NCBI GenBank assembly: GCA_025966435.1 | Contig: JAICRQ010000026.1 | Coordinates: 1-16,704 of the forward strand | Direction of reading: 5' to 3' | Source of the DNA: Anaerolineales bacterium | Lineage (GTDB): Bacteria; Chloroflexota; Anaerolineae; Anaerolineales; Villigracilaceae | Length of the DNA: 16,704 bases | Part shown: positions 4,389-7,735 of the stretch, piece by piece | Position numbering within the stretch: the first letter of the stretch is position 1 | Layout: every line of letters begins with the position of its first letter | Program-made: the position numbers and the translations under genes | The notes under the pieces: generated by a model | Told to the model about the DNA's origin: nothing | Database searches by the model: none | Seen by the model: only the letters and a program-made list of their open reading frames with translations

Positions 4389-6149
4389 TCAACCCGCAAC
4401 CACCTCAACAACGGCATGATCGAGCTGCAGATTGTATAAACGCGCATAGACTCCGTCGTGTGCTAATAACTCTTCGTGAGTTCCCTGTTCCTCGATGCCT
4501 CGATCGGTCAGGACCAGAATCCGTTTTGCCTTCCGAATCGTGGATAATCGATGCGCGATGATAAACGTCGTGCGGTCCTTGGCCAGGGTTTCCAGCGACT
4601 CCTGCACTACCCGTTCGCTCTCATTATCCAAAGAGCTGGTGGCTTCATCGAAGATGAGCATAGGCGGATTCTTCAGGAATACGCGTGCAATGCTCAGCCG
4701 TTGTTTTTGTCCGCCCGATAGCTTGACTCCGCGTTGACCGATATCCGTTTCATATCCTTTCGGCAGCGACAGTATGAAATCATGCGCATTGGCTTTTTTC
4801 GCCGCGGCGATGATCTCTGCTTCACTGGCATCTGGTCTTCCATAGCGGATATTCTCAATCACAGTGCCCGCGAACAAATAGACATCCTGCTGAACCACAC
4901 CTACATTCCTACGTAGATAACTTAACTTGATATCGCGGATATTGATGCCATCCAACAGGATTGCTCCCTCGCTGACTTCATAAAAACGGGGGATGAGGGA
5001 ACACAAGGTCGTTTTGCCTACGCCAGACAATCCCACGATCGCAACGGTATCTCCGGCGTTGACTGCCATCGAGATGTTCTTCAGGACATGGGCGTGGTCA
5101 TCCCGATAGCGAAATCCGACATTCCTAAATTCGATATTCCCCTGAGCATTCTTGATTTCAATCGCATTGGGAGCGTCCTGAATTTCCGGCTCGATCTCCA
5201 GAATTTCCATAAAGCGTTGGAAACCGGTGACGCCTTCCTGGAACTGTTCTGTCATGTGTGTGAGCTTCTGAATCGGTTCGATGAGATTGCCGATATACAG
5301 TAAAAACGTAATAAGGTCCGCCAGATCTAATCGCGCGTTTACGATATTGACGCCGCCATAAACCACCACGGTCAGAGTGATGAGCTTCGTGACGGCATCC
5401 ACTCCCTGCCAAATGTACGTTTCGTTCAGGTAAATGCTTTTACGGCTTTGCAGGAAGCGGTTGTTTTCGCGGGCAAATTTCTGCCTTTCCGTCTCTTCGT
5501 TCGTAAATGACTTTACAACGCGAATCCCAGCCAATGTATCTTCCACCTGAGCATTGACATCTCCAATTCGTTCCCTGCTTTCCTTGAAGGCAACATTCAG
5601 TTTCCTGGTGAGGTATAAGGAAAAGATCGCCAGGATGGGTAGGAAGAGAAAAACCGCGAGGGTCAACGGGACGTTGATGTTGATCAGGATGATGAAGGCG
5701 CCGATGAACTTCACCGAGTAGATTAGATAGTCCTCTGGAGCGTGGTGATACAACTCTGCCAGGGAAAACAGATCGTTCGTGATGCGCGACAGGAGCTGTC
5801 CCGTCCGTTGGTCGTCATAGAAACGGAAAGAGAGCTTCTGGTAATGGTCGAAAAGCTCCTTACGCATGTCGCTTTCCATCATGGCGCCCATGGCATGACC
5901 GTAATAATCTACGTAGGAATTGCAAGCCGTGTGGATCAGAATAAGTACCAGCATGAGCGTGCCGGTGCGGTAGATTTCACTTAGCGCGTTCGGCATACCG
6001 CCTTCCAGAACTGTTTTTGTGATATAGCGGGTTAGTAGGGGAAAGAGCAGCGTAATGCCAGCGACGAGAAACGCACAAAACATCACGGATAGTAACACCC
6101 TGAGGTAAGGTTTGTAATACGAGAAGAATTTTTTCGTGCGAGAAGACAT
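4389..6149 (-). CDS. multidrug-type ABC transporter, fused permease and ATPase half-transporter
   Basis: A complete 586-residue exporter of the MsbA/BmrA/LmrA type, expected to work as a dimer in the inner membrane and extrude lipophilic compounds. The transmembrane domain (about 15-320) has six hydrophobic segments. The ATPase domain (about 338-580) has every motif intact: Walker A G-L-S-G-V-G-K-T-T at 373-381, Q-loop Q-Q at 420-421, signature L-S-G-G-Q at 477-481, Walker B M-L-I-F-D-E at 497-502, D-loop S-L-D at 506-508 and H-loop His533. An in-frame TAA lies just before the ATG, so the start cannot be further upstream. The likely Shine-Dalgarno GGAG (6161-6164) has a rather long 11-base spacing. 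The gene is the only one downstream of the attenuator-like leader at 6150-6420. The substrate is unknown. Confidence 0.95.
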   Translation of the reverse strand: MSSRTKKFFSYYKPYLRVLLSVMFCAFLVAGITLLFPLLTRYITKTVLEGGMPNALSEIYRTGTLMLVLILIHTACNSYVDYYGHAMGAMMESDMRKELFDHYQKLSFRFYDDQRTGQLLSRITNDLFSLAELYHHAPEDYLIYSVKFIGAFIILININVPLTLAVFLFLPILAIFSLYLTRKLNVAFKESRERIGDVNAQVEDTLAGIRVVKSFTNEETERQKFARENNRFLQSRKSIYLNETYIWQGVDAVTKLITLTVVVYGGVNIVNARLDLADLITFLLYIGNLIEPIQKLTHMTEQFQEGVTGFQRFMEILEIEPEIQDAPNAIEIKNAQGNIEFRNVGFRYRDDHAHVLKNISMAVNAGDTVAIVGLSGVGKTTLCSLIPRFYEVSEGAILLDGINIRDIKLSYLRRNVGVVQQDVYLFAGTVIENIRYGRPDASEAEIIAAAKKANAHDFILSLPKGYETDIGQRGVKLSGGQKQRLSIARVFLKNPPMLIFDEATSSLDNESERVVQESLETLAKDRTTFIIAHRLSTIRKAKRILVLTDRGIEEQGTHEELLAHDGVYARLYNLQLDHAVVEVVAG

Positions 6150-6172
6150 ATATTTGTGATCTCCATAGAATT

Positions 6173-6202
6173 AAAAAAAAAAGCCGCGGGTTAGACCGCG
6201 GC
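6173..6202 (-). terminator. intrinsic terminator in the ABC transporter leader (distal, T2)
   Basis: Reading the minus strand, GCCGCGG (6202-6196) and CCGCGGC (6189-6183) form a perfect seven-base-pair G+C stem with the six-base loop TCTAAC, followed at once by ten T residues (6182-6173). This is a textbook Rho-independent terminator. It ends only 23 bases before the ABC transporter ATG, with no other gene end upstream on that strand to serve, apart from the 20-codon leader ORF. A strong terminator inside a gene's own leader is the core sign of conditional attenuation. Confidence 0.9.
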
Positions 6203-6211
6203 AGGGGCTGG

Positions 6212-6238
6212 GTTCCACACATACTAGCTGGTGGGAAC
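6212..6238 (-). other. leader stem-loop between the two terminator-like hairpins
   Basis: GTTCC and GGAAC (6234-6238 with 6212-6216) pair, extended by CAC/GTG (6231-6233 with 6218-6220) across a one-base bulge. It sits between the proximal and distal terminator-like hairpins of the ABC transporter leader and may be part of the switching fold. Function is inferred from position only. Confidence 0.4.
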
Positions 6239-6275
6239 AAAAACCACGGGATGCCATGCAAAGCACACCCGTGGT
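6239..6275 (-). terminator. terminator-like hairpin in the ABC transporter leader (proximal, T1)
   Basis: On the minus strand ACCACGGG (6275-6268) and CCCGTGGT (6250-6243) form a perfect eight-base-pair stem around a 17-base loop, and the stem runs into a TTTTT tract (6243-6239). The tract is shorter than that of the distal terminator, so this may be a pause or partial terminator. It begins 29 bases after the stop codon of the leader ORF, within reach of a ribosome stalled near that stop. Confidence 0.6.
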
Positions 6276-6303
6276 ATGGATTTAAGTCAACTGGTAGTCG
6301 AAA

Positions 6304-6366
6304 CTAGATGCAGTCTACGGATGCACTCACATAACAGACAATATTCTGTTGAACCATAGCTGACAT
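6304..6366 (-). CDS. 20-residue leader peptide upstream of the ABC transporter
   Basis: A short frame, ATG at 6366-6364 to TAG at 6306-6304, with sequence M-S-A-M-V-Q-Q-N-I-V-C-Y-V-S-A-S-V-D-C-I. The evidence that it is translated is its ribosome site: GGAGGTG (6380-6374) at an ideal seven-base spacing, much stronger than the site of the transporter gene itself. It lies about 50 bases after the predicted transcript start and 29 bases before the first of two terminator-like hairpins. I do not recognise the peptide. By analogy with BmrB of Bacillus and the Erm/Msr leader peptides, it would act in cis by stalling the ribosome when a translation inhibitor is present. The product itself probably has no other function. 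Confidence 0.68.
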   Translation of the reverse strand: MSAMVQQNIVCYVSASVDCI

Positions 6367-6392
6367 GTGAGCGCACCTCCTTCGACGAAAAT

Positions 6393-6412
6393 TTGGTCTT
6401 CTTGCAGACCAG
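6393..6412 (-). other. 5' leader hairpin (P1) ahead of the leader-peptide RBS
   Basis: TGGTCT and AGACCA pair around the loop GCAAGA on the minus strand (6411-6394), right after the predicted transcript start and before the leader-peptide Shine-Dalgarno. The 5' arm overlaps the segment TTAACTGGT (6416-6408), which can instead pair with a region beyond the leader-peptide stop, so two exclusive folds are possible. Confidence 0.45.
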
Positions 6413-6421
6413 TTAAGTCCG

Positions 6422-6450
6422 ACTATAAGAGAACTGGGAAAGATTGTCAA
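6422..6450 (-). promoter_or_regulatory. sigma-70-type promoter of the ABC transporter transcription unit
   Basis: Minus strand: -35 TTGACA (6450-6445), exactly 17 bases of spacer, -10 TATAGT (6427-6422), one mismatch from consensus in the -10. Transcription should start near 6418-6414, giving a leader of about 265 bases before the transporter ATG. A near-consensus promoter implies that the unit is strongly and constantly initiated, which suits control after initiation by the downstream attenuator. Confidence 0.8.
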
Positions 6451-6454
6451 GTAG

Positions 6455-6483
6455 GAAGATTTCTTCGCGGAGCATTCGCTCCG
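6455..6483. repeat. two inverted repeats upstream of the ABC promoter
   Basis: GAAGA-TT-TCTTC (6455-6466) lies 4 bases upstream of the -35 box, and CGGAGC-ATTC-GCTCCG (6468-6483) follows almost directly. Both could be operator sites in the divergent region shared with the amine oxidase gene, or the second could form a hairpin in RNA. The rest of 6484-6559 has two weaker stems (CCCC...GGGG at 6494-6510, ACCG-TTG-CGGT near 6518-6530) and no gene. Confidence 0.35.
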
Positions 6484-6559
6484 ATTATCGCCATCCCCAC
6501 AAGGACGGGGTTGCCACCACCGTTGCGGTCGGCAGTAATACTGGATGGTAGAATGCGGC

Positions 6560-7735
6560 ATGAGCAGCCGCTTTCAAACCATTGTCATCGGGTTGGGCGC
6601 TATGGGCAGCGCCGCGACCTACCAGCTTGCGAAACGGGGGACTCATGTTCTAGGAATCGACCAATTTTCTCCACCTCACATGTATGGATCGTCTCATGGG
6701 GATACAAGAATCACCCGCCAGGCGATTGGCGAAGGCGCGGAGTATGTGCCCCTGGTCCTTCGCTCATACGATATCTGGGAGGAAATTGAACGGGAAACAG
6801 GGAAGAAGGTCCTCACCATCACGGGTGGGCTGATCATGACGAGTGTAGATGGGGTGATGCGGCATGGCAGTAATTTTTTCAACCAGACCGTTGCCTGCGC
6901 GGAAAAATATGACATCGCCCACCGCCTTTTAGACGCAGGTGAAATCAAGGAGCGATTCCCGCAATTCCGGTTGACCGGGAACGAGAGAGGTTACTTCGAA
7001 GAAACGGCGGGATACCTGCGCCCGGAGCTTGCCGTCGAAGCACAGCTGGAACTTGCGCAACGATACGGGGCGACGCTTGCCTTGTATGAGAAAGTCGTTT
7101 CCGTTTCTGTAAAGGATGAAAAGGTAGTCGTGAGAACGGATAAGGGAGAATACGAAGCCGAAAAAGCGATTCTCACCGCGGGTCCCTGGATCACGAAACT
7201 ACTTGCGGAGAAGTATGCTCAGTTCTTTAAGATCTATCGCCAGGTAATGTATTGGTTCGATGTAGAGGACTCGATCTTAAAATTCGAGGCGCTGCATTTT
7301 CCGGTCTGGATATGGGAATTCGGAACAAGCGTGGAAGACCTGATGTATGGCTTTCCCGCCATTGACGGGGCTCATGGAGGCGTAAAGAGTGCTTTTGAAC
7401 AATACAGAGTAGAAACAGATCCAGATGCTGTCTCAAAGGAAGTTTCAAAGAAGGAGATAGAAAAATTCTACGGGCGTTATATCCAACCCCACTTTGCGGG
7501 GATCACAGAAAATTGCGTCAAAGCAGATTCTTGCCTGTATACTGTTACACCTGATCATAAATTCGTGATTGACAGACATCCTGAATTCCCCCAGATCATT
7601 ATCGCTTCGCCGTGCTCGGGGCACGGGTTCAAACACTCCGCCGCTATTGGAGAAATTCTGGCTCAGCTCGTCACGGACGGTCGAAGCGAGATTGACATTA
7701 GCGCGTTTTCGTTTCGAAGGCTTATAGAAAAATAA
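6560..7735 (+). CDS. solA: FAD-dependent amine oxidase of the MSOX/SolA family (sarcosine or N-methyltryptophan oxidase-like)
   Basis: A 391-residue flavoprotein expected to oxidise a secondary N-methyl amine, making formaldehyde and hydrogen peroxide. The N-terminal dinucleotide fold G-L-G-A-M-G is at 11-16. The stretch S-H-G-D-T-R-I-T-R-Q-A-I-G-E-G (45-59) is very close to the same region of monomeric sarcosine oxidase, as I remember it. Lys276 (G-V-K-S) aligns with the oxygen-activating Lys265 of MSOX, and Cys325 (S-C-L-Y-T-V-T-P-D) with Cys315, the covalent flavin site. The C-terminal S-G-H-G-F-K-H is also typical. An in-frame ATG at 6545 would add five residues; ATG 6560 matches family N-termini better. 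Neither has a strong Shine-Dalgarno. The exact substrate is not determined. Confidence 0.9.
   Translation: MSSRFQTIVIGLGAMGSAATYQLAKRGTHVLGIDQFSPPHMYGSSHGDTRITRQAIGEGAEYVPLVLRSYDIWEEIERETGKKVLTITGGLIMTSVDGVMRHGSNFFNQTVACAEKYDIAHRLLDAGEIKERFPQFRLTGNERGYFEETAGYLRPELAVEAQLELAQRYGATLALYEKVVSVSVKDEKVVVRTDKGEYEAEKAILTAGPWITKLLAEKYAQFFKIYRQVMYWFDVEDSILKFEALHFPVWIWEFGTSVEDLMYGFPAIDGAHGGVKSAFEQYRVETDPDAVSKEVSKKEIEKFYGRYIQPHFAGITENCVKADSCLYTVTPDHKFVIDRHPEFPQIIIASPCSGHGFKHSAAIGEILAQLVTDGRSEIDISAFSFRRLIEK

Follow-up and report, generated by a model that had tools for sequence, protein, structure and literature searches.

A leader upstream of an Anaerolineales ABC exporter and its counterparts before genes for ribosome building and drug export in many related bacteria suggest an undescribed translation-stress regulon

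The stretch of DNA analyzed here in its full length of 16,704 nucleotides (henceforth the window) is contig C49 of the Anaerolineales genome G000, which is 80% complete. On its minus strand lies a gene for an MsbA/Sav1866-like ABC exporter of 586 amino acids (4389..6149), preceded by a leader that contains all the parts that a first-pass annotation had listed. The leader begins with a sigma-70-like promoter, TTGACA-17-TATAGT, with 11 of the 12 consensus bases (6422..6450, minus strand, as are all the leader features). A small hairpin, TGGTCT..AGACCA (6394..6411; -7.7 kcal/mol), lies between this promoter and an upstream open reading frame (uORF) of 20 codons, MSAMVQQNIVCYVSASVDCI (6304..6366). 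The Shine-Dalgarno (SD) sequence of the uORF, AAGGAGGTG (6374..6382), together with its 3' flank up to 6367, contributes to a stem, the putative anti-antiterminator, whose other strand is an anti-SD segment, GTGAGTGCATCC, in the 3' part of the uORF (6319..6330). This anti-SD can pair either with the SD region or with the 5' arm of the first of two intrinsic terminators, T1 (6239..6275), which consists of a hairpin (6275-6243) and a five-T run up to 6239, and whose 5' arm and loop are of SD-like sequence. A middle stem (6212..6238) separates T1 from the second terminator, T2 (6173..6202), with a hairpin of seven G-C pairs (6202-6183) and ten Ts (6182-6173), and the exporter gene starts at 6149, 23 nt past the last of these. 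On the plus strand, the divergent gene at 6545-7735 encodes an N-methyl-L-tryptophan-oxidase-like flavoprotein, scoring above the curated cut-off.

Scans of positions 5000-7500 recovered two promoter-like sites against 2.6 expected from shuffles; the promoter is thus not significant when taken alone, since shuffled sequences give such sites as often. In the same interval seven terminator-like sites were seen against 2.8 expected. The small hairpin at 6394-6411 is followed by AATTTT and also scores as terminator-like in the scan. A stricter scan of the whole 16.7 kb window on both strands returned two sites; one is T2, which alone of the pair has a long T run. T1 fails this setting because its stem has a bulge.

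Pairing of the SD region with the 3' part of the uORF, which the first-pass annotation had missed, gives a duplex of -21.9 kcal/mol, and none of 200 shuffles produced one as good. The same anti-SD segment forms a candidate antiterminator with the 5' arm of T1 (-17.3 kcal/mol), and no other segment of the scanned region pairs better with that arm. An antiterminator had earlier been sought in a pairing between the 5' arms of the first and second hairpins, and this was dropped in favor of the anti-SD. The attenuator part of the original interpretation is supported, while the identity of the antiterminator is replaced by the anti-SD paired with the 5' arm and loop of T1.

Orthologues of the exporter (E≤1e-180) are patchily distributed: the family has them in 4 of the 152 genomes searched (window included), the order in 11 of 400 and the class in 36 of 396. 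The best 80 of 511 related places (59-72% identity) are in Bacillota, with Paenibacillus frequent, and in Chloroflexota, together with MAGs of Chlamydiae and a handful of other groups. After removal of 13 duplicates, 106 transporter loci were examined, of which 27 carry, in the 700 nt upstream, an AAGGAGG-type SD followed by a uORF no longer than 60 codons; 24 of these 27 are of Chloroflexota origin. From these data 14 transporter leaders were chosen in which the uORF is followed by T-run terminators. A uORF-coupled transcription attenuator, as the annotation had proposed, is still the best reading of the leader, and the uORF and terminator are kept in L003, L072 and L089, the three other genomes of the family that have the transporter at this threshold. 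Against the reading, the closest Chloroflexota homologue that was fetched (L114, 69% identity) is without such a uORF and has a hairpin preceding the gene, and the leader is absent in L004 and others. In the minimum-energy folds, the partner of the SD is in the later half of the uORF, or spans the uORF stop, in 11 of the 14 leaders, and is elsewhere in L096, L122 and L131. Taken singly, the SD:anti-SD duplex reaches p≤0.05 against shuffles in eight leaders, and the anti-SD is a poor partner for T1 in four (L093, L122, L096 and L131). The leader of L118, from another family of the order, is nearly the same as that of the window, with the uORF stop falling within the anti-SD; judged by sequence, the RNA is kept here and the peptide is not.

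Homologues of the same pump carry other kinds of uORF leader. In 13 of the 106 loci, all from Bacillota (L033, L034, L037, L042, L043, L044, L050, L061, L063, L065, L076, L083 and L098), the last 160 nt upstream of the transporter contain a uORF with GGAGGG, a CCCTCC right after its stop, and then GGAGG or GGGGG near the gene start. These uORFs end in (W/R)-R-(A/G/V)-x-x-x-stop, and the arrangement looks like a translation attenuator. That two uORF-leader designs appear to guard one pump would support translation stress as its signal. A second Chloroflexota type (L038, L040, L049, L057, L060, L070 and L073) has a uORF that spans GTCG(A/G)A(A/T)CAGG and is frame-shifted in some loci, and mostly CGCTTAG at the uORF stop matched by a downstream CTAAG; this type may be translational. 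In L053 a short ORF, MLIKNIGIYAHVDAGKTTLLRGGI, lies 76 nt upstream of the transporter, and we take it to resemble the GTP-binding motif of EF-G/TetM-like proteins.

A covariance model (R1) built from 12 of the transporter leaders and run against 63 loci matched 16 at E≤1e-3, including the 12 used for training; outside these it recovered L152 (42.3 bits) and L149 (40.3 bits), and, weakly, L101 and L096. At E≤0.01, R1 matched 223 of the 400 genomes of the order, in 88 of 130 genera, although the transporter occurs in just 11 of the 400; a training leader was among the matches in five genomes (G000, G004, G146, G159 and G301). A second model (R2), built from 79 sequences and applied at E≤1e-3 to a draw from the phylum, matched 25 of 301 genomes, 21 of them in the same order, three elsewhere in the class and one elsewhere in the phylum. 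Within Chloroflexota, to which the searches were directed, the element therefore belongs mainly to this order. In the genome of the window itself there are five copies at E≤0.01, and reading of the translations places them before a RIO kinase gene cut by a contig end, the present exporter, two more ABC exporters and a GNAT acetyltransferase. ABC exporter-like matches lie about 2.5-7 kb from a RIO-kinase element on the same contig in G000:C99, G008:C49, G009:C66 and G024:C9. Rfam release 15 gave no match at the gathering threshold for the window and none up to E 0.1 for 10 loci; a search of 14 loci up to E 0.1 gave two matches, both below the gathering score, namely Leu_leader in L227, away from the element, and suhB in L226, overlapping it.

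The genes behind the element are of few kinds. We collected 65 non-transporter loci (the 25 best matches, one per genome, and 40 picked by hand), 64 of which had a downstream reading frame. These comprise 42 RIO kinases (38 by motif and four partial), seven RsgA GTPases, four ABC exporters, three ABC-2-type ATPases, two MFS transporters, two GNAT proteins, one M24-like peptidase, one alpha/beta hydrolase and two genes that were not assigned. A further 17 loci picked from L224-L253 added seven ABC exporters, five GNAT proteins (three of these genes more than 600 nt downstream), three RIO kinases, one ABC ATPase and one locus with none, itself a weak match (E 0.14). As mainly high-scoring loci were read, these proportions should not be taken for those of all matches. 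Pfam searches with eight representatives returned RIO1 (three), RsgA (two), MFS, GNAT and ABC_tran, and a search against solved structures grouped one representative with Rio1 kinases and one with RsgA; the remaining genes were assigned by motif or by eye. RsgA acts in maturation of the 30S subunit, and RIO kinases act in small-subunit maturation in archaea and eukaryotes; we know of no established role for the bacterial RIO kinases.

Comparison of these sequences bears on the proposed pairings. In the set of 12 leaders aligned with MAFFT, RNAalifold recovered the SD:anti-SD stem and T1 unprompted, with changes on both sides in eight of 15 pairs. Stem and T1 together are paired in 83.3% of cells against 76.7% in shuffles, and have 27 cells changed on both sides against 10.8, with none of 500 shuffles as high. 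In a larger alignment (A3) of 79 elements, which leans to structure because it was fitted to a covariance model, the corresponding figures are 86.2% against 80.3% of cells paired and 137 against 45.7 changes on both sides; none of 500 shuffles was as high in percentage paired, in both-side changes or in covariation score, and slid versions of the two helices pair in at most 51.1%. The T1 helix is paired in 99.8% of cells over the 79 elements. The annotation had looked to covariation in related leaders, and the SD:anti-SD stem and T1 do covary strongly in both the 12 and the 79 sequences, which supports these two as predicted helices. The antiterminator has weaker support, as it stands above shuffles in the 79 sequences but not in the 12, where it is paired in 76.1% of cells against 74.5% with 100 of 500 shuffles as high. 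In the 79 elements the count draws on T1 bases beyond the seven counted stem pairs, some of which pair in the upper stem of T1 in the window: 387 of 474 cells (81.6%) of these loop bases are complementary to the anti-SD, against 78.2% for permuted loops, with one in 5000 permutations as high. Slides by -1, +1 and +2 pair in 14.8%, 26.6% and 55.9%, and a slide by -2 still pairs in 75.4% because of CGCG repeats. Position 165 of the anti-SD and loop base u5 form C-G in 45 elements, T-A in 10, T-G in seven, C-A in four and other combinations in 13, and covary with a Fisher p of 5.6e-5 (n=79), and of 0.0015, 0.0033 and 0.011 in sets thinned to 67, 56 and 36; since base 165 is a partner of the SD as well, and thinning takes away relatedness only in part, this signal may be partly indirect. 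For 164 and u6, p is 0.0043 (79), 0.010 (67), 0.11 (56) and 0.44 (36).

Folding gives some indication of when each helix might form. With transcription halted before the 3' arm of T1 and the SD and early codons masked as if by a ribosome, antiterminator formation is predicted above 0.4 in 74 of 79 elements (median 0.85; window 0.99). With no mask it exceeds 0.4 in 37 of 79 (median 0.36; window 0.01), and therefore not every member needs the ribosome mask; with the anti-SD masked the count is 0 of 79, as it must be. When the letters of the anti-SD were shuffled under the early mask, 246 of 474 cases exceeded 0.4 (median 0.43). Once T1 is complete, its predicted probability is above 0.5 in 74 of 79 elements when free, in 56 under the early mask and in 77 under the late mask, and in the window it is 0.91 under the early mask. 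T1 therefore wins at equilibrium even with an early ribosome, and the switch would have to be kinetic. In the mask-and-fold experiment that the annotation had put forward, the complete leader of the window did not flip to antitermination. Among complete leaders the early mask flipped L085, L086, L137 and half of L132, and L122 was open without a mask. T2 forms at 0.99 in both states.

Taken together, we read the leader as a ribosome-read transcription attenuator and a member of an RNA element common in this Chloroflexota order, at a probability of roughly two in three. When no ribosome is present, or when the uORF is quickly finished, the SD region would pair with the anti-SD in the 3' part of the uORF; a ribosome near the uORF stop would instead cover the anti-SD. 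In either state T1 would fold and transcription would stop. A ribosome that starts on the uORF but lingers over its first codons, owing to a drug or other stress, would mask the SD and leave the anti-SD free to capture the emerging 5' arm and loop of T1, so that T1 would not form in time and the gene would be transcribed. The length of the uORF would suit such a race between ribosome and polymerase. The timing, a drug or translation stress as the signal, and the manner in which polymerase would pass T2 belong to the conjectural part of this scheme.

Several features of the uORF bear on what the ribosome reads. An ATG lies 6-12 nt past the SD in all 79 elements (the ATG being part of the model that selected them), and from it the reading frame runs without a stop to the anti-SD motif in all 79, against 32 and 52 in the other frames, and through the anti-SD core in 76, against 23 and 50. 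The uORFs are of 12-32 codons (median 20), and in 76 elements the stop lies 4-27 nt past the start of the anti-SD CCT. This conservation points to a translated uORF with a ribosome-binding site, and an intrinsic terminator stands between it and the gene (T1 in the 79 elements, T2 as well in the window). The annotation had held that uORF changes that shift frame freely would speak against it. The uORF stays open to the anti-SD, whereas its frame relative to the CCT is not fixed, being in frame in 63 elements and in the other frames in 13 and 3. A rival explanation is that the uORF encodes an arrest peptide, with peptide-specific stalling setting the switch. Its peptides do contain S-A-P in about half of the elements (41), S-A-P-P in 27 and R-S-A-P in seven, the CCT is in frame in most, and Arg-Ala-Pro-Pro arrest peptides are known from uORFs, going by passages of PMC10951233 and PMC12992588. 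However, RAPP, RGPP, RAPG and RAGP occur in none of the 79 peptides, the window reads V-S-A-S, and the same bases lie in another frame in 16 elements, including the seven RsgA leaders, six of which read (V/A)-R-L there; these bases are also explained by pairing with the SD. The differences in frame, along with the stop within the anti-SD of L118, argue that what is conserved is not one arrest peptide, and the reading by conserved peptide was set aside as the frame changes across elements. Across the elements compared, what is kept is the openness of the uORF up to the anti-SD and not a peptide, and we regard an arrest peptide as improbable.

Two other explanations put the ribosome in a lesser role. 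The presence of one element, with its conserved RNA core, before many genes that are unrelated to each other would also fit a protein or small molecule that binds the leader, in the manner of a riboswitch or protein-controlled attenuator, with the uORF secondary. Against it, the conserved stretches are the SD, the ATG, the anti-SD and T1, with no further core seen in the alignment, the uORF is open to the anti-SD motif throughout, and Rfam gave no match at gathering score; we consider it very unlikely. Marginally less likely still is that the two terminators serve for ordinary insulation and the uORF is mere decoration, with constitutive read-through or a start further down. T2 is not explained by the switch, and seven of the 14 transporter leaders have a further terminator-like site after T1; against this stand the SD:anti-SD covariation, the openness of the uORF and the repeated occurrence of the whole element before a narrow set of genes.

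A broader proposal, which we consider evenly balanced, is a regulon without a regulator protein, wherein, in this Chloroflexota order, one ribosome-read RNA switch, based on three-way competition among the SD, the anti-SD and a terminator arm of SD-like sequence, acts before genes for small-subunit assembly factors (RIO kinase and RsgA), drug exporters and acetyltransferases. If so, slow early translation would turn on these genes in cis, much as the Actinobacteria do in trans through WhiB7, and a large, mostly uncultured bacterial group would sense ribosome trouble through a reusable RNA module. The genes behind this module would tell how the cell responds to such trouble, would give bacterial RIO kinases a regulatory context that links them to ribosome stress, and could make the element a marker for finding unknown self-protection genes. 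Among the matches listed in our search of open full-text literature, which included a term search of two structured-RNA surveys (PMC2864571 and PMC8632094), we found this element nowhere described. Mechanisms of this kind are known; what appears new, within the literature and Rfam searched, is the three-way SD design together with the family and the set of genes behind it.

The closest parallel is the leader of vmlR, an ABC-F resistance factor gene of Bacillus subtilis. According to passages of PMC9226507, its uORF lies inside an anti-antiterminator stem, and a drug-stalled ribosome lets an antiterminator form that blocks the intrinsic terminator; by analogy, the mechanism proposed for the window would work alike. 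As described there, the vmlR uORF is a tripeptide whose SD is single-stranded before the stem, whereas here the SD region of the uORF is itself a strand of the stem, the T1 arm is SD-like and one element recurs before several types of gene. The bmrB-bmrCD leader, also of B. subtilis, likewise places a short ORF and a terminator before a multidrug ABC exporter, and translation of the leader is needed for induction by lincomycin (passages of PMC4191407); in that case the terminator is inside the coding sequence of bmrB, the exporter is made of two subunits, and those passages mention no leader family such as that found here. The ApdA and ApdP arrest peptides of the RAPP type are similar in having a proline-containing motif near the end of an upstream ORF, and differ from the present uORFs, which carry none of the four motif variants and whose frame is not fixed (compared with the passages of PMC10951233 and PMC12992588). 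At the level of the regulon, the likeness is to WblC/WhiB7 of Actinobacteria, which, in passages of PMC7157823, controls translation-stress genes for drug removal, acetyltransferases and ribosome-linked functions, similar kinds to those behind the present element, with wblC itself under attenuation control by a uORF. In that system one transcription factor runs the regulon, whereas here each gene seemingly has an attenuator of its own.
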